64,000 nucleotides of DNA from Streptacidiphilus sp. PB12-B1b (GTDB taxonomy: Bacteria > Actinomycetota > Actinomycetes > Streptomycetales > Streptomycetaceae), in assembly GCF_014084125.1 (NCBI RefSeq), contig NZ_CP048405.1:1364001-1428000 (forward strand). The letters are read 5' to 3'. Below the pieces are notes generated by a model. That model was given only the letters and a program-made list of their open reading frames with translations, did not search any database and was not told the DNA's origin. Positions 600-19,235 of the stretch are shown here, one piece after another (the first letter of the stretch is position 1; each line of letters starts with the position of its first letter). A program made the position numbers and the translations under genes.

Positions 600-734
600 C
601 CCGGGACGGCCGGGGCCGGGATAGGCTCAGCCGTCGCGGGACTGACCAGCAGTGAGAAACCAGTGGGCGGCTCCGCCGTCCTGCGCCATGGTGCTGCGAC
701 GACGAAGTGGCGTGGTCGAAGGGGTGTCGGCAGG

Positions 735-3704
735 GTGACGGACGAGCTTTCTTTCGCTGTGCTCGGCGAGCTGCGTGCGTACCGGGGAGATGCCGAGCTG
801 CGGGTCGGGCCGCCGCAGCTGCGGGCCGTGCTCGCGGCCCTGCTGCTGCGGTCGGGGCACGCGGTCTCGATGGCGCAGCTGGTCGACGCCCTGTGGAGTT
901 CCGAACCGCCCAGCACGGCCGTCACGATGATCCGGACCTACGCCTGGCAGCTGCGGCGGCTCCTGGAGCCGGACCCCTCGACGCTGAGCGTGCTGCTGTC
1001 GGCCGGGGACGGCTACCGGCTGGCCGTCCCGCTGTCCGCGCTGGACGTCTGGCGGGCCGAGTCGCTGATCCGGGAGTCGGCGCAGGCCCGCTCCTCGGGG
1101 CGGACGGAGGCGGCGAGCGCGCTGCTCGCCGACGCCCTCGACCTGTGGCAGGGGGAGTCGCTGGCAGGCGTGCCCGGGCCCTTCGCGCAGGGGCAGCGGG
1201 ACCGGCTGGAGGAGCTGCGGGTCGCGGTGCTGGAGGAGCGCTTCGACCTGGACCTGGCCCTCGGCCGCCACCGGCTGGTCGTCCCGGGGCTGGCGGAGCT
1301 GACGACCGAGCACCCGCTGCGCGAGCGCCCCTACGCCCTGCTGATGCGCGCGCTGTACGGAGCGGGCCGGCAGGCCGACGCGCTCGCGGTGTTCAGCGGC
1401 GTCCGGAAGCTGCTCGCGGAGGAGCAGGGCATCGATCCGGGGCCGGAGCTGAGCGCGGTGCACCGGCAGATCCTGGAATGCGATCCGGCCCTGTCCATGG
1501 CGGCGGCCGAGGACGTCGTGACCCGCGACGAGCCCAGGCCGGGACCGGAGGACGATCCGGCACTCGGCCCGGGCCCGCAACCGGCTCCCCAGCTGCCGGT
1601 ACCGGCGCAACTCCCCTCCGATCTGCCCGACTTCATCGGCCGGGCCGGCGCCGCCGCCAGCCTGTGCGCCCTGCTGGAGCGGCCCGGGCACCCGGCGCTG
1701 ACGGTGGTGGCGCTGGTCGGGATGGGCGGGATCGGCAAGACCTCGCTGGCCCTGCGCATCGCGCACGGGGTACGCCAGGCGTACCCCGACGGCCAGCTCT
1801 ACGCCGACCTGCGCGGGAACGACGACACTCCGGTGGAGCCCGGCGTCGTCCTGTCGGGCTTCCTCACCGCGCTGGGCGTCGAGGTCCGGTGGATACCCGA
1901 GGGGCTCGACGACCGCTGCAAGCTGTTCCGTTCCATGCTGGACAGCCGCCGGATACTGATCGTGCTGGACAACGCGCGGGACGCGGCGCAGGTGCTGGAC
2001 CTGGTTCCGGGATCGGTCGACTGCGGGGTGATCGTCACCAGCAGGTCGCGGCTGTTCGGGCTGCCGCTGTCGGCCCAGCTCAGCCTGGAGGCGTTCCAGC
2101 CCGACGAGGCGCTCGCCCTGCTCGGCGCGGTCATCGGGCACGAGCGGCTCGCCGCAGAACCGGCCGAGGCGCTCCAACTGGTCACGGCCTGCGGGTTCCT
2201 GCCGCTCGCCATCCGGATGGTGGCCGCCAGGCTGGCGGCCCGCCCCCGGTGGACCATAGCGACGATGACCGCCCGGCTCTCCAACGAGCAGCGCCGCCTC
2301 GAGGAGCTGAGCATCGGCGGGGCCTCCATCTATGCCACGTTCGAGCTCGGGTACCGGCAGTTGACGCCTCCGCAGGCCCGCGCCTTCCGGCTGATAGCCG
2401 TCGCGGGCGCACCGGCCGTCGGGCTTGCGGCGGCGGCGGCCGTGCTCGCCGCCGACGAGGAGACGACCGAGCACCTGCTGGAGTCCCTCGTGGACGCCGC
2501 GATGCTGGAGTCGCTCGAACCGGGCCGCTACCGCTACCACGACCTGGTGCGCGTCTTCGCCCTGCAACGGGCGGGCAGCCAGGACCGGTCCGAAGCCGCG
2601 CAGGCCCTGGACCGGCTGCTCGACTTCCTGCTGGCCAGCGCGTGCAGTGCGTTCTCGCACGCCGTCCCGGGGGATCCGGTGGCCGACTCCCTGGGCCCGG
2701 TGAGATCGCCGGGGCTGCGGTTCGACGACGTCCACGAGGCGCGGGCGTGGATCACCGGCGAGATCGAGGTGATCACGGCGGCGGTGCTGCAGGCCGTCGG
2801 CCTGCCGGCGGAGCTGGACACCGGGCAGCTGCGGGCCGCGGTCGACCTGCTGATCGCCCTCAGCTCCTTCAGCCGTGACATCAGGTTCGGTCAACTGGCG
2901 CCCACCGCCATGGAGTTGGTCCGGGCGGCCGAGCGCCGGGGGGATGTGCGGACGTCCGGGCGGGCCCGGCTGCTGTGCAGCACCATCGCCTTGCAGGCGG
3001 CCCGGCCCGCCGATGCCGAGGAGCACGCCCGCGCGGCCATCAAGGCGTCCCGGAGCACCGGGGACACCGTCATCCTCCGGCAGGCGCTCAACGACCTCGG
3101 GGTGGCCGCCCAGTTCCTGGGCCGCCACGACGAGGCCGTGGCCTGCTTCGACGAGGCGATCGTGCTCGCCCGTACGCTGGGTCACCAGTCCGGGGAGGCG
3201 GCGACCACGATCAACGCGGCGCTGGCCCGGGTGGGCAGCGGCCGGGCAGCGGAGGCGGTACCGGCCTGCGAGAACACCCTGCAACTGCTGCGCTCCATGA
3301 ACGACCTCCCGGGAATCGCCTACGCGCTGTACGTGCTCGGCCTGGCGCTGCACGAGGAGGGCCGGTACGAGCACGCCGCCGCCCGCTACACCGAGTGCCT
3401 CGGTGTGTGCCGCTCGGCCGGCTTCCGGGACCGCGAGGCCCAGGCGCAGTACCGGCTCGCCGAGACGCTACGGATCACCGGCCGCACCCAGGAGGCGGTG
3501 GAGCAGGCCGCCGAGGCGGTCGCCCGCTGCGAGGAGATCGGAGCGGTACGCAACCAGGCGTACGCCCTGGTGGTGCTCGGTCAGGCCCAGGCCGGCCTGG
3601 GCCTGACCGCCGACGCCCGCACGCAGTGGGAGCGGGCGCACGCCCTCTTCGTCCAGCTCGGACTCCCGGACGCGGCGGACGTCGGTCGGTTGCTGCAGGC
3701 GTGA
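735..3704 (+). CDS. Large SARP-family transcriptional activator (AfsR-like, BTAD + NB-ARC + TPR)
   Basis: The protein has three regions. An OmpR-type winged-helix DNA-binding domain occupies about residues 1-100. A bacterial transcriptional activation domain (BTAD) follows to about residue 255. An NB-ARC ATPase has its P-loop Gly-Met-Gly-Gly-Ile-Gly-Lys-Thr-Ser near residue 330, and tetratricopeptide repeats fill about residues 770-980. This is the layout of AfsR and other long SARPs that activate antibiotic clusters, often at direct heptamer repeats overlapping -35 regions. I chose the GTG at 735, because the conserved domain starts right after it and a purine-rich stretch (719-725) precedes it; an in-frame ATG at 663 would add 24 residues of low-quality sequence. 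Its position at the edge of the biosynthetic genes makes it the probable cluster activator. Confidence 0.9.
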
Positions 3705-3728
3705 CGCCGGCTGCGGCACGGCCTCCGG

Positions 3729-3920
3729 TCAGTTGACCGGGGGCTCCCCGGTGCTGTTCCACGCGCTCGCAGCCCACGCGTGGTGCTGCGTCGCGCCAGG
3801 GGAAGGCCGGTCCGCCGTCCCGCCGACGACAGCGAGGACGGCGGCCACGCCCAGCGCCGCCGCCAGCGCCGCGGCCCAACCGCGCCGACCTGCCGTCTTG
3901 AGGCTCCTTCTCACGATCAC
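3729..3920 (-). CDS. Small single-pass or secreted hypothetical protein
   Basis: This 63-codon gene converges on the SARP gene with a 24-base gap. The product has a basic N-terminus, one Ala/Val/Leu-rich hydrophobic segment (about residues 14-34), and a polar tail rich in His, Trp, Ser and Asn. A signal peptide or membrane anchor fits this layout. A GAGGG ribosome site lies 9 bases upstream of the GTG at 3920, and a second GTG two codons later is possible. It is 63 residues long like AfsS, which lies beside afsR in Streptomyces coelicolor. However, it lacks the AfsS repeats and has a hydrophobic core, so I do not equate the two. Function unknown. Confidence 0.55.
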   Translation of the reverse strand: MIVRRSLKTAGRRGWAAALAAALGVAAVLAVVGGTADRPSPGATQHHAWAASAWNSTGEPPVN

Positions 3921-4170
3921 CCTGTGCGCCCCTCGTAGTGCTTCGCTGTTCCCGATGTGTTCCGCCCATCGTCGCAGACCGCGATCAACGCCCCATCTAT
4001 ATCCGATACGTGCCCGGCTGCCCGGGGTGGCCGGGGTGCGGGCGCTGATGCGGACTATCGGGTGCAGACGTCCTGAAGATCCGGAATTTATCGCTCCCGT
4101 CTAGTGTGGTCGGAAAGAGCGGACGGGATTCCGGCAACGCGATTCGACGATTCGATTCCAGGGGGCTGAG

Positions 4171-4209
4171 ATGCGTATTCTTTTTGTCTCGATCAACGGC
4201 TGGTGGTAG
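4171..4209 (+). CDS. 12-residue mini-ORF ending in Trp-Trp (leader peptide or peptide precursor candidate)
   Basis: The ORF encodes Met-Arg-Ile-Leu-Phe-Val-Ser-Ile-Asn-Gly-Trp-Trp. A strong G5 ribosome site (about 4161-4165) sits about five bases before the ATG. Codons such as CGT, ATT, CTT and TTT are rare in this genome, as is typical of leader peptides. The stop codon touches a 7-bp inverted repeat (GCCGTAC/GTACGGC, about 4208-4241), and a 12-bp hairpin follows at 4271-4305. The tandem Trp codons plus hairpins resemble a trp-type attenuator, but no plus-strand gene follows before 13015. The peptide itself may therefore be the product, as with the 7-codon mccA of microcin C. Whether it is translated cannot be shown from sequence alone. 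Confidence 0.45.
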   Translation: MRILFVSINGWW

Positions 4210-4270
4210 CCGTACTCCTCCGGAAAGGGCATTCCCGTACGGCGGGGTGCTGAATTCCGGTGGCTTTCGC

Positions 4271-4305
4271 CAGGCGGGGGCGTCCGAAAAGGGCGCCCCC
4301 GCCTG
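4271..4305. terminator. Strong bidirectional hairpin terminator
   Basis: A perfect 12-bp stem (4271-4282 with 4294-4305) encloses an 11-base loop and is followed on the plus strand by CTTTCTCATT. It lies immediately beyond the stop of the ATP-grasp gene on the minus strand and about 60 bases after the mini-ORF on the plus strand, so it can end both transcripts. Confidence 0.8.
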
Positions 4306-4310
4306 CTTTC

Positions 4311-5600
4311 TCATTCCACCGGCCCGACCTCGACCCGGAACTCGCGGCCGACCCGCTCCACCAGCGCGTCGAACTCGTCGGCCGTGTCGGCGCCCAGGAC
4401 CACGAAGACGCACCACTCGGACGCGTGCGAGAGGTCCACCACGTCGCCGACGCCGCGCAGCGGCTGGGCCCGCAGCACGCCGTCCATGGCCAGCATCGTC
4501 TCGACGCTCGGGATCGCGGTGATCCGCCCGGGGGCCGCCGGGCGCAGGTGCAGCGCGCCGAGGTGCCGCCGGCTGGGCCGCGGCGCGGGGAGCTTGCCGG
4601 TGACCAGGGCCTGGCCCAGCGCGTGGTGGACCTCCAGTCCGGTGGCCTCGCCCAGCAGCGGCGGGATCCAGCCGCCGCCGAGCCGGGTGGCGATCTCGGA
4701 GAAGACCAGCTCGCCGTCGGGGCGCTGGAACACCTCCAGGTGGGTGACGGCGCGTTCGATGCCCAGCGCCCGGTTCACCTGCCGGTGCAGGTCCAGCACG
4801 CGCCGGTACAGCTCGGGGTCGTCCTCGGCGTTGATCACGGTGCTGCCGTCCAGCGGCAGACCGGCCTCGGGGATGTGGGCGATGCCCTCCAGCACCGTGA
4901 GCCGGGTCATGAAGTAGGCGCTGACCACCAGGAAGAGCGGTTCGTCGCCGTCCCACACGGCGTCGATGTGCAGCTCCCGGCCGGTGACGAACTCCTCCGC
5001 GATGAGCTGGCGGGACTTCACGATCGGGATCGGCCCGATCGCGGCCAGCTTCGACGCCAGCTCGTCGGGGGAGTGCACGGTGAACGTGCCGATGGCGCCG
5101 CCGCCGGAGACCGGCTTGACCACGAGCGGGAAGGCCAGCCGCTCGCAGACCGCCGCCACGTCCTGCTGGTCGTTCGGGTCGGGCAGGCTCGCCCAGGCGG
5201 CGGTGCGGACGCCGGCCGCCGCCACCCGCTGCTTCATCAGCCGCTTGTCCCGGTAGGCCACGTGCCGGAGCGGATCCCCCTGGCCGCCCAGCAGGATGGC
5301 CAGGTAGCCGGCGCCGAACTGGCTGAACTCGGTGAAACTGATGATCCGGTCGCCGCTGACCCCGCGGAGCGAGAGGTCGGCCGCCACCGCGGAGATCTCC
5401 TCCAGGGAGTCGAACTCGCTCACCCGGTAGACCCGGGCGGCTCGGCCCAGCAGCTCCCAGTCGGGGTGCATGTGGTCGACGTCGAAGTCGTCCAGCACCA
5501 CGTACACGTCCAGCCCGCTGTCGAGCAGCGAGCCGATCAGCTCCGGGTTCCACTTGCAGACGACGACCTGCTCAGGCCGCTGTGCGCTGATGTCGGTCAT
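4311..5600 (-). CDS. ATP-grasp carboxylate-amine ligase
   Basis: This 429-residue protein shows an N-terminal pre-ATP-grasp Rossmann-like region. The ATP-grasp core follows, with the lysine/glycine loop Lys-Pro-Val-Ser-Gly-Gly-Gly near residue 165 and the metal-binding Glu-Ile-Ala-Thr-Arg-Leu-Gly-Gly-Gly near residue 300. Members of this family activate a carboxylate as acyl phosphate and join it to an amine, often making dipeptides or capping peptides. A GAGGAT ribosome site precedes the ATG at 5600. It is the last gene of the minus-strand operon, 49 bases behind the exporter. In this cluster it is the clearest peptide-bond-forming enzyme; its substrates cannot be read from the sequence. Confidence 0.85.
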   Translation of the reverse strand: MTDISAQRPEQVVVCKWNPELIGSLLDSGLDVYVVLDDFDVDHMHPDWELLGRAARVYRVSEFDSLEEISAVAADLSLRGVSGDRIISFTEFSQFGAGYLAILLGGQGDPLRHVAYRDKRLMKQRVAAAGVRTAAWASLPDPNDQQDVAAVCERLAFPLVVKPVSGGGAIGTFTVHSPDELASKLAAIGPIPIVKSRQLIAEEFVTGRELHIDAVWDGDEPLFLVVSAYFMTRLTVLEGIAHIPEAGLPLDGSTVINAEDDPELYRRVLDLHRQVNRALGIERAVTHLEVFQRPDGELVFSEIATRLGGGWIPPLLGEATGLEVHHALGQALVTGKLPAPRPSRRHLGALHLRPAAPGRITAIPSVETMLAMDGVLRAQPLRGVGDVVDLSHASEWCVFVVLGADTADEFDALVERVGREFRVEVGPVE

Positions 5601-5649: not shown

Positions 5650-6930
5650 TCAGGACACGGTGGCCGCGTCCATCGGGGCGAGCGCGCCGGTGGACGGCGG
5701 CCGCCCGCGCAGGGCGAGGCGCAGCCAGTACGCGCCGATCAGCAGCACGGCGGCCGCGCCGACGACCACCACGGCACGGACGCCGATGAGTTCGGACAGC
5801 AGGCCGCCGGTGAGGGCGGCGACCACCGCGGCGCCGTAGCTGAAGGCGTAGAGGGTGGTGAGCATCCGCCCCTGGAGGTGGTTGGGGGTGACCCGCTGCT
5901 GGTAGGAGGCGGCCGCGATGTCCCAGACGAAGACGGCCGCGCCGCAGCTGAAGAAGGTCGCGGTGGCGAGCCAGGGCCCGGTGGTCAGGCCGAGGGCCAG
6001 TCGGCTCAGGCCGGTCGCCAGCAGGGCCAGCGCCATCGTCCACTCCACCCCGAGGCGGCGGACCAGCACCGGGGCCAGCAGGCCGCCGAGCACGCTGCCC
6101 AGCGCGGCGGCGCTGAACAGCAGGGTGTACTGGGTGTCGGTCAGGCCGAGGTCCCGCTTGGCGTACACCACCATCAGCGCGGTGGCGATCAGCATCCAGA
6201 AGTTGAGCACCATCTCGCTCACCAGGATGGTGCGCAGCAGCGGGTACCGGCCGATGATCCCGACCGCCTCCCGCAGCTGGGCGAGCACGGAGGGGCGCGG
6301 CCCGTCCGGTGCGGGCGGGGCCTGCGGCTCGGCTGCCGCGCCGGGCCGCCGCAGGACCGGGATCAGCAGCGAGACCAGGGCGGCCACGGCGAACAGGCCG
6401 CCCTCGGCGAAGAACGGGGCGCAGACGGCGACGCCGAACAGCACACCGGCCAGCGGCGAGCCGAGCACCTGCTGGGTCAGCATCCGGGCCGAGAAGAACC
6501 GGGAGTTCGCCTTCTCCAGCAGCTCCGGCGGCACCGGCAGGGAGATCAGGGCGAAGGTCGCGGACTCGGCGAACAGCTCGGCCACCGAGAGCGCCGCGGT
6601 CATCGCGTAGACCTGCCAGAGCGCGGTCCGGTCCGACACGATCACCGTGGCGAAGCAGAGCACCAGCCCGGCCCGGACCACGTGGGCGGCGGTCAGGATC
6701 CGGCGCCGGTCGAGCCGGTCGACCATCACCCCGATCAGCGGTCCGACCAGCAGTCCGGGCAGCGCGGCGACGACCATGACCAGCGAGATGTCCACCGCGC
6801 TGTGCGTCAGCGACAGCGCCAGCAGCGGCATCGCCACCAGCCGCAGGCCGTCACCGAGGCTGGAGACGCTCACGGACGCGAACAGCATCCAGTAGCCGTG
6901 GCCGAGCCGGTGCTTGCCTTGGGTTCCCAT
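5650..6930 (-). CDS. MFS efflux transporter
   Basis: This 426-residue, twelve-helix major facilitator has the signature of the MFS_3 (EntS-like) exporter group, including the Asp-Arg-Leu-Asp-Arg-Arg loop between helices 2 and 3. I use the ATG at 6930 (Met-Gly-Thr-Gln-Gly-Lys-His), four bases after the AlaRS-like stop. The longer frame starting at 6972 would run deep into the upstream gene. It probably exports the cluster product, a role parallel to MccC in microcin C clusters. It also contributes to self-protection if the product acts inside the cell. Confidence 0.87.
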   Translation of the reverse strand: MGTQGKHRLGHGYWMLFASVSVSSLGDGLRLVAMPLLALSLTHSAVDISLVMVVAALPGLLVGPLIGVMVDRLDRRRILTAAHVVRAGLVLCFATVIVSDRTALWQVYAMTAALSVAELFAESATFALISLPVPPELLEKANSRFFSARMLTQQVLGSPLAGVLFGVAVCAPFFAEGGLFAVAALVSLLIPVLRRPGAAAEPQAPPAPDGPRPSVLAQLREAVGIIGRYPLLRTILVSEMVLNFWMLIATALMVVYAKRDLGLTDTQYTLLFSAAALGSVLGGLLAPVLVRRLGVEWTMALALLATGLSRLALGLTTGPWLATATFFSCGAAVFVWDIAAASYQQRVTPNHLQGRMLTTLYAFSYGAAVVAALTGGLLSELIGVRAVVVVGAAAVLLIGAYWLRLALRGRPPSTGALAPMDAATVS

Positions 6931-6934
6931 CAAC

Positions 6935-8224
6935 TCACAGGCTTCCGCGCAGGGTGGCCGAGAAGCGCGCACAGAGCTGCTCGGAGATGTCGCGCAGGAC
7001 CTCGCGCAGGGCGGCGGGCTGGAGCGCCTCCGACGAGGTGAGGTCGAGCGTGACGGTCACCGACTGCTGCCCGGCCGGGAGCGACGCGCCTCGCCAGGTG
7101 TCCAGCACCCGGGCCTCCAGGCCCAGGAGTCCGGGCAGGCTGATCTCCTCCGCTGCCCCGCACAGGAGTTCGGGATCGAGCCCGGCGTCGCAGAGGAAGG
7201 AGAGGTCGACCGGGCGGGTCGTGGCGCTGTCGCGTCGGAGCTGGTGCAGGTCGGTCCGGAACAGCGCCGCCACGTCGGTGTCCGGGGCGTCGACCGCGCC
7301 GATCCCGGACAGCCGGGTGATCAGCTCCTGGTCGGTCACACCGAGTTGGGCGGCCAGCCGCTCGATGTACACCAGTGCCTTGCGCATGATGTAGCCCTGG
7401 GCGCGCTTGGCGGGGACGATACCGGCCCGGTACAGCTGCACCAGCAGCCCCAACAGGTCAGCCAGCTTGGCCTGTTGCGGGGTCTCCGGCAGGGAGAGGC
7501 AGCCCTCGGGAGTGGAGTCGATCACCCAGCGCGCGGCGGTCAGCCCGGCGGCCAGGGTCTCCACCCCGATGCCGAAGCCGTAGGCCACGGTCGAGCCCTG
7601 CCACTCGAAGGCGATCAGGTTGCCCAGATCGCGCCAGCTGCCGTCCGGTTGGACCAGGCAGAAGGTGGCGCCCCGGCCGGTCATCCCCTCGTCCCCGAAG
7701 CTCCAGGCGTAGAAGTCCTCCGCTTCGCCGTCGTGGGCGACCGGGCCGGCCCAGGCCCGCTGCCAGGCGTCGTCCAGGTCGCGGTGGCCGGAGGCCACCT
7801 TGAACGCCACCTCGTCGGCGGCTAGGCCGAGTTCACGGCCGAAGTACCCGGCCACCGCCGACGCGAAGTCGTCCAGCCGGTCGGCCGGCGCCATCGCGCC
7901 CAGCATCTCGAAGTGCAGCACGAACTCGGTGTGGAAGTCCGCCAGGAAGGTGGCGCGCAGGTTCTGGCTGCGCACACACGGCTGACGGACCGTCACCCAG
8001 TCGCCGTCCAGCGGCTGATCGCCCCGGATGAACGGCTTGAACGGCACCACGGCGGAGTTGGTGAACAGGATGGTGCGGTCCGTGGTGGGTACCGCGGGCT
8101 CCGGGGCCAGCCGGCGGGCCCCGGCGGCCTGGAACCAGTCGGTGAAGCCGACCGACCACTCCTCCAGCCGGGCACGCGCCGCCCGGGCCCCGGCGAGTCG
8201 GGACAGTACGACGTCCTGGGGCAC
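6935..8224 (-). CDS. Alanyl-tRNA-synthetase-like protein, catalytic part only
   Basis: The first 240 residues match the class II core of AlaRS: a Phe-Thr-Asn-Ser motif near 54, Pro-Phe-Lys-Pro at 61-64, the motif-2 Cys-Val-Arg-Ser near 84, and Phe-Glu-Met-Leu-Gly near 105. A helical middle domain with Gly-Tyr-Ile-Met-Arg-Lys follows. At 429 residues it is about half an AlaRS and lacks both the editing and the C-Ala domains. Motif 3 reads Gly-Ile-Gly-Val-Glu-Thr, so the usual Arg is Thr223. It may therefore activate or transfer an amino acid in biosynthesis rather than charge tRNA normally. The GTG start lies one base after the preceding stop, which implies translational coupling. Confidence 0.75.
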   Translation of the reverse strand: MPQDVVLSRLAGARAARARLEEWSVGFTDWFQAAGARRLAPEPAVPTTDRTILFTNSAVVPFKPFIRGDQPLDGDWVTVRQPCVRSQNLRATFLADFHTEFVLHFEMLGAMAPADRLDDFASAVAGYFGRELGLAADEVAFKVASGHRDLDDAWQRAWAGPVAHDGEAEDFYAWSFGDEGMTGRGATFCLVQPDGSWRDLGNLIAFEWQGSTVAYGFGIGVETLAAGLTAARWVIDSTPEGCLSLPETPQQAKLADLLGLLVQLYRAGIVPAKRAQGYIMRKALVYIERLAAQLGVTDQELITRLSGIGAVDAPDTDVAALFRTDLHQLRRDSATTRPVDLSFLCDAGLDPELLCGAAEEISLPGLLGLEARVLDTWRGASLPAGQQSVTVTLDLTSSEALQPAALREVLRDISEQLCARFSATLRGSL

Positions 8225-8225
8225 T

Positions 8226-9140
8226 TCAGACTCCGTTCGGCTTGGCGGGAAGGGTGCACATCTGGTCCGCGAAGCCCTTCAGCAGGGCGACGCCCAGCCG
8301 GTGCGCCCTCGACGCGCTCCGGTCGTCGCCGACCAGCGGGACCACGAACAGCGCCGGGTGCAGCCACCACATGTGCCAGAACGAGATCCCCAGATAGCGC
8401 CTGGTCAGCAGGTGGAAGCCGACGGCGCCGGCGCCGATGAGCCGCCGGTCCTGCCAGCGGGCCACCAGCAGCGGGAGGAAGGCCGCCTCACCGAGGACGG
8501 TGAGCACCGCGATCAGCCGCATGAGCTCGTCGTTGCGGCTCAACTCGGCCCCCGCCGGGGTGCCGAGCACGGCCAGCGAGCCCTTCACGGTGCGTCCGGT
8601 GGTCATCCACTCCCGGCCGCCGTGCACCAGCTTGGAGAGCCCGGCCTGGCTGTAGACGGTGGCCGCGCCGAGCTGCATGGAGGCCAGGGCGACCGACTGC
8701 AGTTGGGCGGTCCGCTCCGGCAGCGGGTCGTCCAGCGGGGGCCGCAGGTCCGCTGCGGCGGCCACGCCGACGAACAGGCTGAGGTGGCTGTTGTAGTTCC
8801 AGAACCTCGGGTGGAAGTGGGCGACGTAGGCGTTGGTGGAGATGAACGCGGTGGCCGCGACCGTCCGGACGGCGGGGTGCCTGACCCCGGCCGTCCAGAG
8901 CGCCATACCGACCAGGCCGGCCCCCCTGAGCAGGTCGTACTGCTGTCGGGTGAGGGTGAACCGCGGCTTGCCGCAGACCTGTTCGGACATCACGGTGTCG
9001 GCGTGCTCCTCGAAGAAGGAGCCGTCCGGCAGGTGCCAGAGGGTGCGGAGCGCGGCTGCGCCCAGCACCGTCCTGGTCAGCCGCATCCGGGCGGGCGCGT
9101 CGGCTTGTCGGAACAGGATGTCGGTGACCCTGCGCAGCAT
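8226..9140 (-). CDS. HTTM-like multi-pass membrane protein
   Basis: This 304-residue protein has several hydrophobic helices. Segments such as His-Phe-His-Pro-Arg-Phe-Trp-Asn-Tyr-Asn-Ser-His, Gly-Leu-Ser-Lys-Leu and Trp-His-Met-Trp-Trp-Leu-His-Pro resemble the HTTM family, which is related to vitamin-K-dependent gamma-carboxylase membrane domains. The ATG at 9140 overlaps the stop of the upstream gene by one base (TGATG). The longer frame up to 9542 is a shadow of that gene. HTTM proteins often sit with DCC-type thiol oxidoreductases, and one is found in this cluster at 17225. Its role in the pathway (membrane redox or maturation) is inference. Confidence 0.65.
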   Translation of the reverse strand: MLRRVTDILFRQADAPARMRLTRTVLGAAALRTLWHLPDGSFFEEHADTVMSEQVCGKPRFTLTRQQYDLLRGAGLVGMALWTAGVRHPAVRTVAATAFISTNAYVAHFHPRFWNYNSHLSLFVGVAAAADLRPPLDDPLPERTAQLQSVALASMQLGAATVYSQAGLSKLVHGGREWMTTGRTVKGSLAVLGTPAGAELSRNDELMRLIAVLTVLGEAAFLPLLVARWQDRRLIGAGAVGFHLLTRRYLGISFWHMWWLHPALFVVPLVGDDRSASRAHRLGVALLKGFADQMCTLPAKPNGV

Positions 9141-9655
9141 CAGTCGGTCTCCCAGCGGTGAAGGACCTGGCGGTCGTGGAGCGGTGAGTCGGTGCTGCGG
9201 GAGTAGTCGGCCAGGTCCACCGTCACCAACAGCATCTCCAGGCCGGTGAACCCCCGCGCGGAGGTCGGCCGCTCGGAGCCGGCGACCTCGTCGAAGCCCT
9301 TCCAGGGGCGGGCGTTGAGGCGCTGCACCACCCGGCGGCAGAACCGGTCCCGGACCTCCGTGTCCTCGTTCTCCAGCAGGACCGCGGCGCAGATGTCCAC
9401 CACCCGGAAGAACTCGAGCGGCAGCAGGCCGTACACCGAGCGCGGCTCGGTCCAGCGATCGCCGTCCCGGAGCCGGACCCGCAGCTGCGGGAGCCGGTCG
9501 GGCATCACCCGGTTGAACATGTTGTTGGAGCAGATCGGCCACCGGTTGCGGTCCCGGACGGTGTGCACGAACTGCGCCGCGGTCAGTCCGCCCAGGACGG
9601 CGGCGGCCAGCAGCGGCGCCCGGTGCACGGCGGTGCTCCGAGGTCCACCGCTCAC
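9140..9655 (-). CDS. Membrane-anchored hypothetical partner of the HTTM protein
   Basis: This 171-residue protein begins with one hydrophobic helix (about residues 13-28), followed by Trp-Pro-Ile-Cys-Ser-Asn-Asn-Met-Phe-Asn. That motif resembles the Trp-Pro-Phe-x-x-Tyr-Pro-Met-Phe found in small proteins encoded beside HTTM genes. The remainder is soluble and charged. The GTG at 9655 overlaps the stop of the MccF-like gene (GTGA), and its own stop overlaps the HTTM start, so the three are probably translated in sequence. I cannot name a function; a subunit of the HTTM membrane complex is the best guess. Confidence 0.6.
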   Translation of the reverse strand: MSGGPRSTAVHRAPLLAAAVLGGLTAAQFVHTVRDRNRWPICSNNMFNRVMPDRLPQLRVRLRDGDRWTEPRSVYGLLPLEFFRVVDICAAVLLENEDTEVRDRFCRRVVQRLNARPWKGFDEVAGSERPTSARGFTGLEMLLVTVDLADYSRSTDSPLHDRQVLHRWETD

Positions 9656-10686
9656 GCCGCCACCGCGCTGTCCAGCACGGTGAGCCCGCACTCCGCGGCG
9701 GCGGTCAGCTCCGCCCGCGCGCCGAACGGGACGCAGAGCATGGGGTCGGTGTGGCCGAACGGCAGCCCGCTGACCACCGGCCCCTGGAACCCGGCGGTCT
9801 CCTGGGCGACCAGCTCGGCCAGCGCCTCGGAGCGGTCGAACTCCGGATCGGTGAACCGGCCCAGGCCGAGGCCGGCGATCCGGTCCAGTACGCCGATCTG
9901 GCGCAGCTGGGTGAACTGGGCGGTCAGCTTGGCCGGATCGGCGCCGGTGCTCTCCAGGAGCAGGAGCGCGCCGTCCAGTTCGGGCCAGTAGCCGGTCCCG
10001 GCCAGCGAGAGCAGGGTCTCCAGGTTCCCGCCGATCAGGAAGCCGGTGGCGCGGCCCGCGCGCAGGGCGCGGGCCGGGGCGGCGCTGAGCACGGTGCGCG
10101 GCCGGTCGTCCGCCGCGTCCCAGGGCAGGAACTCGGTCACCTGCTCGGCCGGGAGCGGGACCGGGCCGATCGGCCGGTCGCAGCCCAGCACCTGCTGGAA
10201 CATCCGCCGGGTGTACTCCAGGCTGCCGCCGAACTCGCCCCACTGCGGCAGGAGTTGCGGCCCGAGCACGACACCGGTGCCGGTGCGCTGCCAGATGGCG
10301 ACCAGCAGCGCCGTGGTGTCGCTGTAGCCGACCAGCGGCTTCGGGTGGGCCCGGATCAGGTCGTAGTCCAGCAGGTCGAGCAGCTGGTTCGCGTTGTACC
10401 CGCCGATCGAGGTCATGATCGCCCGGACCTGGTCGTCCAGGTACAACTCGTGCAGGTCGGCGGCGCGATCGGCGGGCGTCCCGGCGGTGTGGCCGGTGTC
10501 GCGCAGCCAGTTCCGTCCGCCCCTGACCCGGTAGCCGAGCTCCTCCAGGTGGGCCAGCGCCCGCTCCCGGCGCCGGGGGTAGCGGGCCGCGTGCGCCATC
10601 GACGGCGCGCAGACTCCGATCGTGTCACCCGGGCGCAGCGGCGCGGGCCGCAGCACCCCGGGTGCCGTCGTGCTGGGTCCTGGCAC
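9652..10686 (-). CDS. S66 family LD-carboxypeptidase, MccF-like immunity hydrolase
   Basis: This 344-residue protein carries the S66 catalytic triad: Ser122 in Gly-Tyr-Ser-Asp-Thr, Glu223 in Gly-Gly-Asn-Leu-Glu and His312 in Pro-Phe-Gly-His-Thr. The family contains murein LD-carboxypeptidases (LdcA) and MccF. MccF cleaves the amide of processed microcin C and other non-hydrolysable aminoacyl nucleotides and so protects the producer. A Trp at position 189 may match the base-stacking loop of MccF, but this needs alignment. The placement among synthetase-like genes favours an MccF role over cell-wall recycling. A GTG start lies six bases behind the methyltransferase stop. Confidence 0.85.
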   Translation of the reverse strand: MPGPSTTAPGVLRPAPLRPGDTIGVCAPSMAHAARYPRRRERALAHLEELGYRVRGGRNWLRDTGHTAGTPADRAADLHELYLDDQVRAIMTSIGGYNANQLLDLLDYDLIRAHPKPLVGYSDTTALLVAIWQRTGTGVVLGPQLLPQWGEFGGSLEYTRRMFQQVLGCDRPIGPVPLPAEQVTEFLPWDAADDRPRTVLSAAPARALRAGRATGFLIGGNLETLLSLAGTGYWPELDGALLLLESTGADPAKLTAQFTQLRQIGVLDRIAGLGLGRFTDPEFDRSEALAELVAQETAGFQGPVVSGLPFGHTDPMLCVPFGARAELTAAAECGLTVLDSAVAA

Positions 10687-10692
10687 GGTGGC

Positions 10693-11565
10693 TCACGCCC
10701 CGCGCTTGGCGACGAAGAAGAGGTTGTTGCCGCGCTCGGCCAGCGCGCTCTCGCCGAGCAGGCTCAGCTCCAGCTCGCGGATCTGCCGGTAGTGCTCCGG
10801 GTCCGACAGGGTGCGCAGCACGCCCGCGCTGGAGCCGTCCAGCTGGGTCTCCTGGTAGCCGGGGTAGACCAGCACCGGGTAGCCGGTGCGGACGGTGGTG
10901 TGCAGGCCGACCCGGGCCAGGTCGCCCTGGAGCTCGGTGGGCGTGAACAGGTGCATGGCGGGCATGTCCGGGGTGAACCTGCCGGTGCGGTCGAGCACGG
11001 CCGAGCGGGCCTCGTCCAGGTTGCCGACCATGATGTTGAAGAAGGCCGTGTGGTAGCGGTTCGGCAGCACCAGGGCCATCTGGGCGCCCGGGTTCATCAG
11101 CGAGCTGAGCTGGCGCAGCACCTCGGTCGGCTCGGCGACGAAGCCCAGCACGTTGTGGAAGCTGATCACCAGGTCGAAGCTGTGGCCGGCCAGGTCCTCG
11201 GCGACGTTCATCAGGTCGCCGTTCACCACGGTCAGGCGGTCCTGGTAGCCGTGCTGCTCGGCCTTGGCGGTCGCGTGCCGGGACATGTCGGGGCTGAGGT
11301 CGTACAGCACCCCGGTGAGGTCCGGGCGGGCGGTCAGCAGCCGGTCGGTCCAGCGGCCGGTGCCGCCGCCCGCGTCCAGCAGCCGGCCGCCCTGGGGCAG
11401 GTTCGGCAGCACGTGGCGCTCGATGGACTCCCAGAGCAGTTCGTCGGAGAGGCGCCAGTAGACCTGCTCGTCGACCCGGTCGTAGCCGTCGGCCTTGTCC
11501 CGGAAGTAGCTGAGCACCTCGGCGTGCTCGGCGCTGTCGACGGATTCGGAGAGCTGGGACGTCAT
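10693..11565 (-). CDS. Class I SAM-dependent methyltransferase
   Basis: This 290-residue protein has the SAM-binding motif Leu-Asp-Ala-Gly-Gly-Gly-Thr-Gly near residues 63-70, an acidic residue after strand beta-2 (Tyr-Asp-Leu-Ser), and the Phe-Asp-Leu-Val-Ile-Ser-Phe-His motif of class I methyltransferases. The C-terminal part is variable and likely binds the substrate. AGGA precedes the ATG at 11565. It is the second gene of the minus operon and probably tailors the cluster product; N-, O- or C-methylation cannot be told from the sequence. Confidence 0.85.
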   Translation of the reverse strand: MTSQLSESVDSAEHAEVLSYFRDKADGYDRVDEQVYWRLSDELLWESIERHVLPNLPQGGRLLDAGGGTGRWTDRLLTARPDLTGVLYDLSPDMSRHATAKAEQHGYQDRLTVVNGDLMNVAEDLAGHSFDLVISFHNVLGFVAEPTEVLRQLSSLMNPGAQMALVLPNRYHTAFFNIMVGNLDEARSAVLDRTGRFTPDMPAMHLFTPTELQGDLARVGLHTTVRTGYPVLVYPGYQETQLDGSSAGVLRTLSDPEHYRQIRELELSLLGESALAERGNNLFFVAKRGA

Positions 11566-11616: not shown

Positions 11617-12639
11617 TCAGGGCAGGATGGCGCTGCCGTTGAAGCGGAGCAGCAGGGCGAGGTCGCGGATGTCGTCGTGCTTGGTCGCCCAGAGCAGGAA
11701 GCGCTCGACGCCCAGGCCGAAACCGGCGGTGCGGAGTGGATGGCGCTGCTTCATGACCGTGTACCACTCGTAGCTCTCGGCGGGGACCTCGTGCAGGCTC
11801 AGCGCCTTGGCGAGGGTCTCCCCGTCCGGGTGCCGCTCGCCGGAGCCGACCGTCTCACCGACGCCGAACAGCAGGTCGGCGCTGAGCGCCTTGGTCGGGT
11901 CGGCCTCGTCGAACGCCTGGTAGAACGGCACGCTCAGGTGGTCGGGGTGGGTCACCCAGACGTACCCGCCGAACTGCTCCATCAGCTCGCGCTCCCCGGC
12001 GCGGGTCAGGTTGCGGCAGCGGGGCTCCAACTCGGTGACGAAGCGCGGGTCGGCGTCCAGCCGCTCGACCGCCTCGTCGAAGGTGATCCGCGGCAGCGCC
12101 GAGGAGCCGGCCAGCTCCTCCAGGTGCTCCACCGTTCCGGCCATCTCGCGGACCGCGTCACCGGCGTACGCCAGCAGGCCCGCCGCCAGGTACCTGAGGT
12201 AGTCCTCCACGGTGCGGATGACGTCGTCCAGGCCGCCGACGATCTCGGCCTCGCTGTGGAAGAACTGGCACAGGTGGGTCTCGTCGGCCGGCTCGCCGCG
12301 GAAGGACGGCATCAGGTAGTACGAGCCCTCGGGCGCGAGCCGGCAGCCGAACTCGAGCATGAACTGCATGGAGTCCGCGAGGTAGGTGGGGACGCCCTCC
12401 AGGTTCACCATCACCGGGCTGCTGTCGCTGCCCCGGCCCATCGGGCTGGAGATCGAGCCGGTGGTGATCGGGAGGTGCAGGTTCCGCGCCCTGCGCTCGG
12501 TCCAGAAGGCGGTGGTCCGGTGGGCGATGACATCCTGGAGCACGGTCAGGTTCCGGTACCACGGGTTTTCCAGCACCGTCAGGTAGTGGTCGTCCGGGTT
12601 CTTCCAGGAACGCGGTGCGGGAGTCGTCTCGACAGACAT
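11617..12639 (-). CDS. Stripped asparaginyl-tRNA-synthetase-like enzyme (class IIb core)
   Basis: This 340-residue protein resembles only the catalytic domain of AsnRS/AspRS. Motif 2 is Phe-Arg-Gly-Glu (113-116) with a following His-Leu-Cys-Gln-Phe-Phe, and motif 3 is Gly-Leu-Gly-Val-Glu-Arg ending at Arg313. The N-terminal OB-fold anticodon-binding domain is absent. Relatives of this shape include AsnA-type asparagine synthetases and synthetase paralogues recruited into natural-product pathways. It probably activates Asp, Asn or a related acid as an adenylate. A clear AGGACCTCC site precedes the ATG at 12639. It is the first gene of the minus operon. Confidence 0.8.
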   Translation of the reverse strand: MSVETTPAPRSWKNPDDHYLTVLENPWYRNLTVLQDVIAHRTTAFWTERRARNLHLPITTGSISSPMGRGSDSSPVMVNLEGVPTYLADSMQFMLEFGCRLAPEGSYYLMPSFRGEPADETHLCQFFHSEAEIVGGLDDVIRTVEDYLRYLAAGLLAYAGDAVREMAGTVEHLEELAGSSALPRITFDEAVERLDADPRFVTELEPRCRNLTRAGERELMEQFGGYVWVTHPDHLSVPFYQAFDEADPTKALSADLLFGVGETVGSGERHPDGETLAKALSLHEVPAESYEWYTVMKQRHPLRTAGFGLGVERFLLWATKHDDIRDLALLLRFNGSAILP

Positions 12640-13014: not shown

Positions 13015-13914
13015 GTGCTGTCCCTAGTCCCCCCAGCGGCGGTGCCCTCCGCCGTGGTCGCCGGCGTCGGGCTGACCCTGTCCGGTACGGCGGCCGTGCT
13101 CAGGCGCAGCGCGGCCCTGGAACTGTCGGCCGTGCTCGACCTCGGGGGCGGCGTCGGCCGGGGCTGGCGGCAGCTGCTGGCCGCGCCGGAGGTCGATCTG
13201 GTGGTGCTCGACGAGACCGGCCCGGAACGCCTGCGGAAGGTGCGCCAACTGGCCGATTCGGGCAAGGCGGTGCTGCTGGCCGATCCTTTCCCGCTCACGG
13301 TCGAGGAGTTGGACGGCCTGCTGACGGCGGAGCGCGCGAGCGACCGGCCGATCGGCCTGCTGGCGCCGCACCGGGCCCTGCTCGGTGCGGCCGCCCAGGG
13401 CCACAGCTGGGGGCCGCTGACCTGCGGTGTACTGGCGGTCTCCGGATTCCGCCAGGTGGAGGCGCACCGCTGGGGCCGCTGGGGGGCGCTGGCCGACGGC
13501 GCCCCGGCCCAGGCCGCGCTCCGGGCGGTCGCCCCCTACCTGGATCTGGTCTGCCAACTGCTGGGCGAGCCGCAGGTGTTGTGCAGCCTGGGCCCGGGCT
13601 CCGGCGCGGACGTCGGGCTGGTCGACTTCGCCCAGGGGGCCCGGCTGGCCTGGGCGGTCACCTCCCGGGCCACGGCCCAGGTCGAGCGGCTCGACCTGCT
13701 GGACGGCGGGCACCGGCTGCGGCTGGAGGACGGCTGGCTGCACGTCGAGGGGCCCGCCGGTCGCAGCACCACGGAGCTGACCTCGCTGCCCGCCGCGCAC
13801 GAGCTGCTGCTCGGCGAGATGGCCGCGGCGATCAACGCTGTTGGTAAGCTTCGCTATTGCAGTCTGGCTGCCGGTCGTGGCCTGGCGATGCTCCTGGGGG
13901 CCTGGAAGACCTGA
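13015..13914 (+). CDS. Degenerate Gfo/Idh/MocA-like oxidoreductase
   Basis: This 299-residue protein starts at a GTG preceded by GGAG about ten bases upstream. It follows the outline of a Gfo/Idh/MocA protein, with an N-terminal Rossmann half ending near residue 115 and a C-terminal beta-sheet half. However, the usual Gly-x-Gly-x-x-Gly dinucleotide motif is poorly kept (Gly-Val-Gly-Leu-Thr near residue 18), and the Glu-Lys-Pro catalytic motif is replaced (Ala-Asp-Pro near 90). It may have lost redox activity. It leads the plus operon ahead of pheS, about 130 bases apart. Confidence 0.5.
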   Translation: MLSLVPPAAVPSAVVAGVGLTLSGTAAVLRRSAALELSAVLDLGGGVGRGWRQLLAAPEVDLVVLDETGPERLRKVRQLADSGKAVLLADPFPLTVEELDGLLTAERASDRPIGLLAPHRALLGAAAQGHSWGPLTCGVLAVSGFRQVEAHRWGRWGALADGAPAQAALRAVAPYLDLVCQLLGEPQVLCSLGPGSGADVGLVDFAQGARLAWAVTSRATAQVERLDLLDGGHRLRLEDGWLHVEGPAGRSTTELTSLPAAHELLLGEMAAAINAVGKLRYCSLAAGRGLAMLLGAWKT

Positions 13915-14047
13915 CGACGTTGAGCCGGCTGGTGCGCCCCGAAGGCCGTGCAGCCCGAAGCGGACTGAGCCCGTGGTGTCCCGTCCGGGGCGGTGGAACG
14001 GGCCCTCGGCGCCGACGGACTGCAGATCAAGTTATGGAGTGGGTGAG

Positions 14048-15082
14048 TTGACAGACATCGAGAGCTTGCGACGATCCTTCCTGGACGAGTTGTCCGGGGC
14101 GTCCCAACGAGTCGAGCTTGAGGCGGTGCGAACCTCATTCCTCGGCCGCCGCAGCGTCATCAAGGAGGGATTCCGTCGCCTGGCCGACCTGCCGGAGGAG
14201 GAGCGCCGGGAGCAGGCAGTCCGGCTGAACGAACTCTCGCAGCACATGCAGCGCGAGATCGACGCCCGGGTCGATGCGGCCCGCAAGGCGGAGACCGCCA
14301 AGCAGTTGGAGGCGGAGTGGCTCGATGTCACGCTGCCCGGCCAGGCGCCGCGAACCGGCTCCTGGCACCCGCTCACCGAGGTCGTGCAGCGCTGCCTGGC
14401 CGTCCTGCGGCAGCTCGGGTTCGAGCACGCCGAGGGCCCTGAGGTCGAGGACGCCTACCACAACTTCGACGCCCTCAACATCCCGAAGCACCACCCTGCC
14501 CGGGACATGCAGGACACCTTCTGGCTGGGCCCCGAGAAGCTGTTGCGCTCGCACACCACCACCGTCCAGGCGCGCGTCCTCGGCCAGGGCAGGGAGCTGC
14601 CGATCAAGATCGCGGCGGCCGGGCGGGTGTACCGCAACGAGGCGGTGGACGCCACCCACCTGGCGATGTTCCACCAGCTGGAGGGCTTCTGGCTGGAGCC
14701 GGGCCTGAGCGTCGGCCACCTGAAGAGTCTGCTCGCCTTCGTCGCCACCTCGCTCTACGGCGAGGACGTCAGGTTCCGCTTCAAGCCCAAGTACTACCCG
14801 TACACCGAGCCCTCGCTCGGGCTCGACATCGCCTGCACCAACTGCGGCGGCGCCGGCTGCGAGGCCTGCCACCACATCGGCTGGGTGACCATCATCGGGG
14901 CCGGCATGATCCACCCGGCGGTGCTGCGCGAGTTCGGCTACGACCGGGACGGGATCACCGGTATCGCGTTCGGCTGGGGCACCACCCGGATGACCGCGCA
15001 GTGGCTGGGCGTCTCCAAGGTCAGGCCGCTCTACGGATCCGACCAGCGCCTGCTGAACTACCTTCACCGAGGCCAGCAATGA
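14048..15082 (+). CDS. pheS: Divergent phenylalanyl-tRNA synthetase alpha subunit, cluster copy
   Basis: This 344-residue protein keeps the N-terminal coiled coil (about 1-85), motif 2 (Gly-Arg-Val-Tyr-Arg-Asn-Glu), the Cys-rich Cys-Gly-Gly-Ala-Gly-Cys loop and a motif-3 Gly-x-Gly-x-x-Arg. Two pocket positions differ from ordinary PheRS. The Phe-Pro-Phe pair that grips the substrate ring is Tyr250-Pro251-Tyr252. The Gly-Met-Gly before the motif-3 Arg is Gly-Trp-Gly (Trp310). Altered amino-acid specificity or inhibitor resistance is likely. I chose TTG at 14048 because GGAGTGGG lies at the right distance; GTG at 14039 lacks a ribosome site. It overlaps pheT by ATGA. Confidence 0.85.
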   Translation: MTDIESLRRSFLDELSGASQRVELEAVRTSFLGRRSVIKEGFRRLADLPEEERREQAVRLNELSQHMQREIDARVDAARKAETAKQLEAEWLDVTLPGQAPRTGSWHPLTEVVQRCLAVLRQLGFEHAEGPEVEDAYHNFDALNIPKHHPARDMQDTFWLGPEKLLRSHTTTVQARVLGQGRELPIKIAAAGRVYRNEAVDATHLAMFHQLEGFWLEPGLSVGHLKSLLAFVATSLYGEDVRFRFKPKYYPYTEPSLGLDIACTNCGGAGCEACHHIGWVTIIGAGMIHPAVLREFGYDRDGITGIAFGWGTTRMTAQWLGVSKVRPLYGSDQRLLNYLHRGQQ

Positions 15083-17224: not shown

Positions 17225-17623
17225 GTGCCCCAGAACCCTGTGCTGCTGTACGACGGGGACTGCGCCTTCTGCTCCAGCAGCGTCCGGTTCGCCGAGCGCC
17301 GCCTGGGCACCGAGGGCTGGCAGGCGACGCCGTTCCAGTTCGCCGACATGCCCGCCATCGCCGAGTTCACCGGCCACCGGGCCACGGTGGACCGGGCCGA
17401 GCACGAGGTGCTCTGGGTCACGCCCACCCGTCAGGTGTACGGCGGCGCGCAGGCGGTGGCCCGGCTGCTGCTCCGCACCGGCCCGGCGCCGGTGGCCTTC
17501 GCGGCGGCGGCGAGCCTGCTGCCGCCGATCGGCCTGCTGGCCGCCGGCGTCTACCGGCTGGTGGCGCTCAACCGGCACCGGCTGCCCGGCGGTACGGCGC
17601 AGTGCGCCCTGCCTCGGCGCTGA
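17225..17623 (+). CDS. DCC-family (DUF393) thiol-disulfide oxidoreductase
   Basis: The protein opens with the family hallmark Tyr-Asp-Gly-Asp-Cys-Ala-Phe-Cys (a Cys-x-x-Cys redox pair) and continues with Trp-Gln-Ala-Thr-Pro-Phe-Gln and a C-terminal hydrophobic helix, about 132 residues in all. AGGAG sits nine bases before the GTG at 17225; an in-frame ATG at 17216 is too close to it. DCC proteins accompany HTTM proteins in many genomes, and an HTTM-like gene is present at 8226. Its last 56 bases overlap the tail of the convergent LuxR gene. Confidence 0.8.
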   Translation: MPQNPVLLYDGDCAFCSSSVRFAERRLGTEGWQATPFQFADMPAIAEFTGHRATVDRAEHEVLWVTPTRQVYGGAQAVARLLLRTGPAPVAFAAAASLLPPIGLLAAGVYRLVALNRHRLPGGTAQCALPRR

Positions 17624-18659: not shown

Positions 18660-19235
18660 TCGAATCTCCTCCCCCAGCGCTGATCCTGCCCGTTGGATTC
18701 CGTACCGGTGCGCGGGGCGGGCGGTCCTTCGTACGAATCGGACGCGCAAGCAATGGTCGGGACTTTTACATACTTGGGTGCGGTGGTCAAGCGCAACCAA
18801 TCCCCGCCGGACGGCGGCCGATTTCCCGGCACGCGGGCCTGCTGCCGCCCGCGCGGACGGCTTGCTCCACCGGCGTCAACTGCCCTGAGCTGCGGCGTAT
18901 TCCGGCCGCACCCGGGCGGTGGGGTGAGGCCGCGGTGCCTGCCCCGACCGCCCTCGCGTCTCACCATGTGGACGCAGCGGCACCGCTGACCGTTCCTCGC
19001 CATGACGCGACGCCGCCCCGGGAATTGCTGGACTTCCCCGGGCGGCGGCGAAATAGTTGAGCGACGGCCGTTCATTCGCAGGGCCCTGGTGCGCCCATTC
19101 ATGGCTGACGGAAATGGGCCGGGAGAATACCGCCGACCTCTCCTCGAATTTCTTGCGCACCGACCGGTCACCGTCGTGTCCGCCCACGCCCCGGACCGGG
19201 CTCGACCACACCGCCTGAGACACCGAGGAAGTCCC
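18660..19235. promoter_or_regulatory. Divergent promoter region between LuxR gene and megasynthase
   Basis: This 576-base gap holds no supportable gene. An AT-richer patch near 18755-18780 and another near 19045-19075 are plausible promoter positions for the two divergent genes. A plus-strand open frame from 19002 runs into the megasynthase but has poor codon character and no ribosome site, so I treat it as leader. No clear operator palindrome was seen. Confidence 0.45.

Follow-up and report, generated by a model that had tools for sequence, protein, structure and literature searches.

The window, i.e., the whole stretch of 64,000 nucleotides analysed here, contains on its plus strand a gene of only 12 codons that starts with the ATG at 4171, would encode MRILFVSINGWW, and stops with the TAG at 4207–4209. 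It is the sole Trp-Trp-ending open reading frame of 4 to 29 codons on either strand of the window when ATG, GTG and TTG are admitted as starts. The features of the mini-gene and its immediate surroundings are the following.

4160–4165, plus strand: ribosome-binding site, with the sequence AGGGGG, 5 nt ahead of the ATG
4171–4209, plus strand: the mini-gene, MRILFVSINGWW followed by a stop, with a single start codon in its 34-codon open frame
4192–4209, plus strand: the conserved core INGWW plus stop, common to the window and three other clusters
4196–4213, plus strand: inverted repeat spanning the stop codon, about seven pairs including one G-U, in the window copy only
4271–4305, plus strand: strong terminator hairpin of 15 pairs, between the convergent mini-gene and ATP-grasp gene

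The original prediction had described a 12-codon mini-gene with a G-run ribosome site and a Trp-Trp end, tandem Trp codons by an inverted repeat, a strong hairpin after them, and no downstream gene on that strand; all of these are present. The 7-pair stem, G-U pair included, lies at the stop codon and the 15-pair terminator follows; the downstream neighbour is the ATP-grasp gene, which is convergent, and therefore no gene lies directly downstream of the mini-gene on the plus strand. The rare AT-rich codons that had also been pointed out (ATT, CTT and TTT) do occur, but they are not conserved in the other copies described below. The RNA of positions 4155–4310 folds more stably than all of 200 shuffled sequences (z -4.9), and two terminator-like sites were found in 3705–4330 versus 0.4 expected in shuffles. 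A promoter scan found none, and a search of plasmid DNA with the mini-gene region gave no match.

The mini-gene lies beside a gene cluster of the antibiotic type, in what looks like a streptomycete; the components of this neighbourhood are the following.

663–3704, plus strand: AfsR/SARP-type regulator, upstream of the mini-gene
4311–5600, minus strand: ATP-grasp ligase of the L-amino acid ligase type
5650–6972, minus strand: MFS transporter
6935–8224, minus strand: short alanyl-tRNA-synthetase-like (AlaRS-like) protein with an FDX-ACB-like end
9140–9700 (start tentative), minus strand: protein without Pfam match, present in the window, G309, OfavH-34-F, G424 and G474
9652–10686, minus strand: S66 peptidase of the MccF (microcin C immunity) type
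10693–11565, minus strand: methyltransferase
11617–12639, minus strand: protein like asparaginyl-tRNA synthetase and asparagine synthetase A (AsnRS-like)
13841–15082, plus strand: second PheS, 36% identical to the other PheS of the genome
15001–17151, plus strand: PheT of the second PheRS
17571–18659, minus strand: TrmB-like/LuxR (GerE) regulator; the GTG start at 18659 is our reading, and the open frame reaches 18800
19002–26093, plus strand: PKS with AMP-binding, carrier, KS, AT and luciferase-like monooxygenase domains
25883–30421, plus strand: NRPS with two condensation stretches, one adenylation domain and one carrier domain

The minus-strand run also includes, between the AlaRS-like protein and the 9140–9700 protein, an HTTM-like membrane protein (recognized by eye, with no Pfam match) that is 76 and 68% identical to its counterparts in the relatives. 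PheS and PheT are flanked on the plus strand by a protein without Pfam match, ahead of PheS, and a DCC1-like protein, after PheT. The second PheS scores above the NCBIfam pheS cut-off, and PheT below its own; the other PheS of the genome is taken to be the housekeeping copy. Two PheS genes each were found in the genome of the window (G000), in G309 and in G460, the second copy being 36–38% identical to the query. The best PDB match of the S66 peptidase is MccF (3gjz, E 3.6e-46), and it has 36% identity with AgnC5, which the agrocin 84 plasmid encodes in a cluster with a resistant LeuRS. With a second PheRS, an MccF-type S66 peptidase, AlaRS-like and AsnRS-like proteins, an ATP-grasp ligase and a PKS/NRPS, the cluster looks like a synthetase-inhibitor pathway, and from its gene content its product would be an inhibitor of PheRS. 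The pair of pheS and pheT at 13841–17151 beside an MccF-type peptidase makes a likely PheRS-inhibitor cluster, with related pairs in the G309, OfavH-34-F and G474 clusters. The arrangement of an NRPS after a PKS that includes a luciferase-like monooxygenase domain is shared by the window, G474 and G309. A structure model of the AlaRS-like protein was set aside (pLDDT 58), and a search of plasmids with this protein returned 13 records, all below 60% identity. Elsewhere, a Cytobacillus plasmid (L117, 5992–10123) has, between a trp operon and metG, an S66 protein 44% identical to that of the window; this is possibly another immunity locus against a synthetase inhibitor.

When genome contigs were scanned with the AlaRS-like protein, one of 26 candidate stretches, from Streptomyces sp. 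OfavH-34-F, proved to encode a relative. Searches of whole genomes found relatives in two of 391 genomes of the order (G000 and G309), three of 392 of the genus of G309 (G309, G474 and G558), one of 14 of the genus of the window and one of 394 of the class; these genome samples overlap, and scoring was limited to the best candidates of a first pass. G558 and G460 correspond to the same contig (C600, 26,219 bases), i.e., that of OfavH-34-F. The clusters of the window, G309 and OfavH-34-F have 12 of the 14 compared window genes in common, at 53–90% identity, and neither G309 nor OfavH-34-F has in its cluster a match to the AfsR/SARP or the DCC1-like gene. The 26-kb contig of OfavH-34-F (L016, L026) shows no match to the PKS/NRPS of the window, and carries an extra ATP-grasp-like gene (L016, 12466–13779) between the MFS and ATP-grasp genes.

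Two other clusters are informative for the comparison. That of G474 encodes AlaRS-like (49% identical to the window), AsnRS-like (64%), ATP-grasp (43%) and S66 (38%) proteins, the 9140–9700 protein (46%), PheS (79%) and PheT (65%), and the same PKS/NRPS at 47–72%; neither the mini-gene nor a regulator of the clade linked to it was found there, the regulator having been sought in 236000–309900 of its contig. The NRPS, MFS transporter, methyltransferase and 9140–9700 protein of the G424 cluster are nearer to those of G474 (45, 48, 66 and 53%, respectively), yet the mini-gene and the regulator are present; no match to the ATP-grasp or the AsnRS-like protein was found in the 40 kb searched. The G424 cluster has a full-length AlaRS of 860 residues, above the NCBIfam cut-off. 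This gene (G424:C3, L060, 13982–16561) adjoins genes for AlaRS-like and B12-type radical SAM proteins, in what is possibly a pathway for an AlaRS inhibitor. Four further stretches of 20 kb with an ATP-grasp protein of about 45% identity (L009–L012) have neither the mini-gene nor a regulator of that clade; three of them (L009, L010 and L011) represent another type of cluster, with the ATP-grasp gene, a second and weaker ATP-grasp match, an aminotransferase-like gene (by eye) and an S66 gene.

Mini-genes that end in INGWW and a stop codon are present in three other clusters, i.e., those of G309, Streptomyces sp. OfavH-34-F and G424. The G309 copy, MINGWW, lies about 190 bp past the ATP-grasp gene on the same strand and adjoins the convergent regulator gene; its frame is open further upstream, so that three longer in-frame starts are possible, with a product of up to 37 residues, and the ribosome site is 11 nt from the short start. 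The OfavH-34-F copy, MESLINGWW, has a single possible start and lies at the opposite end of the cluster, where it is followed by a P450 gene and then by the regulator gene, all on one strand. The G424 copy, (V/M)RMRSRINGWW, has two possible starts, the first preceded by an in-frame stop at a distance of one codon, and a run of MFS and NRPS genes has its first possible start about 35 bp further on. G-run ribosome sites also stand ahead of these three copies, and hence all four have a start and a G-rich site. The invariant part of the four copies is INGWW; the residues before it differ (MRILFVS, M, MESL and (V/M)RMRSR), as do the stop codon (TAG, TAG, TGA and TAG in the window, G309, OfavH-34-F and G424), one Gly codon (GGC or GGT), and the place and orientation of the mini-gene with respect to the rest of the cluster. 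None of the other three copies, which were compared by eye while the window copy was folded, has the inverted repeat at the stop codon. Conservation of the 12-residue sequence in related clusters had been proposed as a check of the gene, and what is conserved is the last five residues, together with frame, start and stop, and not all twelve.

The looser pattern ATHAAYGGNTGGTGG had one match in each of three of seven genomes (that of the window, G309 and OfavH-34-F), all of them within the cluster, and none in G029, G066, G063 and G071; its reversed control matched four of the seven genomes, and it is the place and the ribosome site that separate signal from noise. With the stop included, ATHAAYGGNTGGTGGTRR matched five of 392 genomes (G309, G558, G424, G625 and G507), versus about 1.2 expected from base composition. 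Among 289 genomes sampled from the order, the stop-included pattern matched G000, G309 and G157; these scans took in part of one genus and part of one order, and no control match was noticed among the rows of either. The matches in G625 and G507 fall in the same antisense stretch of one conserved gene and hence were regarded as chance; that of G157 was rejected, as neither an in-frame start nor a ribosome site is close to it. An even looser pattern, AAYGGNTGGTGG, matched G474 12 times and its control 10 times; none of the 12 matches is on the contig of the cluster, and the one WW-ending reading frame observed there is antisense within the AlaRS-like gene.

A further comparison did not ask for INGWW: 29 regions (582 kb) yielded 563 mini-ORFs of 5–25 residues with a ribosome-like site, and 13 of their C-terminal pentapeptides occur more than once. 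INGWW was found in four regions and each of the other 12 in two; these 12 pairs read as orthologous (L107 with L108, L009 with L011, or inside PheS in the window and L015), so that INGWW is the only pentapeptide of this set shared outside apparently orthologous stretches. Because three other clusters have similarly small genes that finish with INGWW, the mini-gene of the window is very probably, on the strength of sequence comparison, a genuine gene for a peptide, which was one of the two options of the original prediction; its size is comparable to that of the microcin C and biarylitide precursors. Only INGWW stays constant while the leader, the stop, the Gly codon, the place and the hairpin vary; therefore selection appears to act on the peptide and not on the RNA.

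Regarding the genes that accompany the mini-gene, a regulator of the same TrmB-like/LuxR clade was found in all four clusters with the mini-gene and in none of the five without it (G474 and L009–L012). The one-sided p for this co-occurrence is 0.008 with the five negatives, 0.03 with three and 0.2 with G474 alone, for clusters that are not independent by descent, and three of the four positive clusters are close relatives. In a tree of 29 rows, made of the four regulators and 25 paralog rows from 14 genomes (two rows being identical, and L088, shorter than 200 residues, being left out of the 26 paralog loci), the four regulators form one group with support of 100/99. They score 596–629 bits against a LuxR profile built from those same four rows, and the next paralog, among the best 30 of many matches taken as loci, scores 194. 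The regulator and mini-gene are convergent neighbours in G309, share one strand with the P450 gene between them in OfavH-34-F, and are 11–13 kb apart in the window and G424. A model of the regulator (pLDDT 63) matches the archaeal TrmB/TrmBL2, phospholipase-D-type and GerE folds, and Pfam detects GerE and no TPR in the four proteins. Shared words were sought in 11 upstream regions with a crude method, and nothing resembling a convincing operator emerged. The neighbourhoods of 20 other TrmB-like/LuxR paralogs contain 871 mini-ORFs, one of which ends in WW (L115, 3661); its site is weak, and it lies over part of a predicted gene. No WW-ending mini-ORF was found near the closest relatives of the regulator (L096 and L118).

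Other genes were considered as partners of the mini-gene. The S66 peptidases likewise group according to its presence (support 85/91), and because of this a role in biosynthesis or immunity is kept in view. Genes for the S66 peptidase, the MFS transporter, the AlaRS-like protein and the 9140–9700 protein occur in all four mini-gene clusters and also in G474. The AlaRS-like, AsnRS-like and ATP-grasp proteins were rejected as partners, given that G474 has all three without the mini-gene. The P450, which is next to the mini-gene in OfavH-34-F, with a 43% identical protein in the G424 cluster and a related one (37%) in G474, was rejected as a common partner, as G000 and G309 have no close relative of it (the best matches, 37% and 31%, lie in other parts of the genome). 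The idea that an NRPS substitutes for the peptide was also rejected, since G424, the window and G309 (the latter two with a PKS/NRPS) have both.

From these results we favour, with somewhat less than even confidence, the explanation that the peptide is a ligand or signal of the TrmB-like/LuxR regulator of the cluster, rather than a carrier or substrate of its enzymes or a scaffold for a modified Trp. A self-contained gene would give a product of 6–12 residues, conserved in its C-terminal pentapeptide INGWW; this product would be trimmed or used whole, would build up inside the cell or be exported and then re-imported, and would bind the sensor domain of the regulator, upon which the pathway of the cluster would be switched on and a presumed phenylalanyl-tRNA-synthetase inhibitor produced. 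Such a role would agree with the persistence of INGWW in four clusters that differ in the place, strand, leader, Gly codon and stop codon of the gene, and with the distribution of the regulator clade. It would also agree with G474, which shares the synthetase-like genes, the S66 peptidase, PheS/PheT and the PKS/NRPS and is without both mini-gene and regulator, and with G424, which resembles G474 in several proteins and has both. On the other hand, three of the four positive clusters are close kin, and S66 tracks the mini-gene too, as expected if this peptidase acts on the peptide; the regulator gene is 11–13 kb away in the window and G424, and the G309 copy has longer possible starts and a ribosome site 11 nt from the short one. 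With 6–12 residues there is no room for a signal peptide, no exporter or importer was identified, and the 11 upstream regions gave no convincing operator. To our knowledge, no TrmB-type regulator with a peptide ligand has been described. In a bolder form of this explanation, which is somewhat less probable, gene and regulator would make up a new kind of actinobacterial peptide signalling: a gene of 21–39 bp would encode the INGWW signal, a TrmB-like/LuxR protein would read it, and the two would travel together as a module among clusters that differ in their chemistry and presumed targets (PheRS and AlaRS).

A use of the peptide in biosynthesis is the main alternative. INGWW could be a ribosomal carrier or core that an ATP-grasp ligase or the NRPS joins to a synthetase-inhibiting warhead, with the MccF-type S66 peptidase as immunity; by analogy with microcin C or pheganomycin this is a serious candidate, albeit an unlikely one. 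The S66 peptidase is clearly of the MccF type and those of the mini-gene clusters group together, a second PheRS or, in G424, a full AlaRS is part of the cluster, and a Pgm1 ligase with a mini-peptide is a pairing described in PMC13417212. Nevertheless, the mini-gene is missing from G474, where a related ligase, an S66 peptidase, synthetase-like genes, PheS/PheT and a PKS/NRPS are present, a search of 40 kb of G424 gave no ATP-grasp match, no adenylating enzyme of the ThiF/MccB type was detected among the window proteins scanned, and the peptide core is identical although the presumed targets (PheRS and AlaRS) differ. The earlier suggestion of a substrate for the ATP-grasp and synthetase-like enzymes is weakened by the same two clusters, G424 having the mini-gene with neither an ATP-grasp nor an AsnRS-like match in those 40 kb. 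Less probable still is a disposable scaffold: the P450 or another enzyme would modify a Trp of the peptide, and the altered Trp would then be set free as an NRPS building block, for which rufomycin is a precedent (PMC13417212). The mini-gene directly precedes the P450 gene in OfavH-34-F, the G424 cluster has the 43% identical P450, and the P450 profile matches include the 4-nitrotryptophan synthase TxtE, far under the cut-off (103 of 500 bits); against this, G000 and G309 have no close P450 and G474 has a related one without the mini-gene.

A cis-acting leader of the attenuator or induction type, responding to charged tRNA-Trp or to the drug and controlling a downstream gene, would account for tandem Trp codons ahead of a hairpin and a terminator, and an operon or the P450 gene does follow in G424 and OfavH-34-F. 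However, no gene is found on that strand before the convergent neighbour in the window or in G309, the hairpin at the stop codon is not conserved, Ile-Asn-Gly is retained as strictly as Trp-Trp, and the synthetase genes found in the clusters are for PheRS or AlaRS and not TrpRS; a leader is thus mostly refuted and very improbable, and with it the relic attenuator that the original prediction had offered as its other option. Finally, the sequence could be an untranslated coincidence or a relic. INGWW-stop 18-mers do arise by chance, as in G507 and G625 (antisense) and G157 (without a start), and about 1.2 are expected in 392 genomes; even so, a simple base model predicts only about 6e-5 of them in four 40-kb clusters, a start and a G-rich ribosome site accompany each of the four cluster copies, and the other 12 shared pentapeptides all belong to apparently orthologous pairs, which leaves chance hardly credible.

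RRNPP peptide pheromones, such as PapR, NprX and Phr, come from short precursors with 5–7 conserved C-terminal residues, are secreted and taken back up as oligopeptides, and act on a cytoplasmic receptor with a TPR domain. The mini-gene resembles them in having a conserved C-terminal pentapeptide behind a variable N-terminus and a DNA-binding regulator in the same cluster; in contrast, the regulator here is TrmB-like plus LuxR/GerE without a TPR match, and the precursor is too short for a signal peptide. As in clusters that make aminoacyl-tRNA-synthetase inhibitors and carry a resistant target, a second, divergent copy of the presumed target synthetase (PheS) is present. Agrocin 84 shares with the window the MccF-type S66 peptidase (AgnC5) and a second synthetase copy, the resistant LeuRS AgnB2 there and PheRS here. 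The precursor of microcin C, mccA, encodes a heptapeptide that ends in Asn (MRTGNAN), according to PMC7136475; a tiny peptide gene and an MccF-type S66 peptidase are common to both systems, but all four peptides here end in INGWW, not in Asn, and no MccB (ThiF/E1-like) enzyme was found among the window proteins scanned. From both microcin C and agrocin 84 the present clusters differ in their presumed targets, PheRS or AlaRS, and in that G474 has the same kinds of enzymes without the peptide gene.

Biarylitide precursors are pentapeptides of the form MxYxH/Y or Trp variants of it, and in rufomycin biosynthesis 3-nitrotyrosine is made on the peptide MRYLH (both from PMC13417212). These systems share with ours a very short gene (18 bp there, and 21–39 bp with the stop here), aromatic residues and, in one of the four clusters (OfavH-34-F), a P450 gene adjoining the mini-gene, as the cross-linking P450 gene of biarylitides lies close to that of the precursor; the MxYxH/Y motif is absent here, two of the four genomes have no close P450, and the P450 tested is under the cut-off of every RiPP model. 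Pheganomycin (PGM1) also combines an ATP-grasp ligase with a short ribosomal peptide gene beside it, whereas the ligase of the window matches L-amino acid ligases, its relative in G474 has no peptide with it, and none was found in the G424 cluster. In comparison with a trp-type attenuator, the downstream gene on the same strand is absent in the window and G309 and present in G424 and OfavH-34-F, and there is no conserved hairpin at the Trp codons, the stop-codon repeat being seen in the window copy only (the others by eye).

Mini-gene peptides in biosynthetic clusters are known, and the INGWW peptide, as deduced from its gene, would be a variant of them for which the open-access papers searched showed no report. 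Nor did these papers show a report of a TrmB-LuxR peptide signal or of a PheRS self-resistance cluster in Streptomyces. Genes this short are usually missed by annotation, and a conserved one beside a second tRNA synthetase offers a handle that standard mining overlooks. If INGWW is a signal, the synthetic pentapeptide could activate silent clusters that resemble synthetase-inhibitor pathways, and streptomycetes would have peptide signalling of a new design; if it is a substrate instead, the mini-gene would belong to a new mini-peptide biosynthetic route tied to inhibitors of PheRS or AlaRS.
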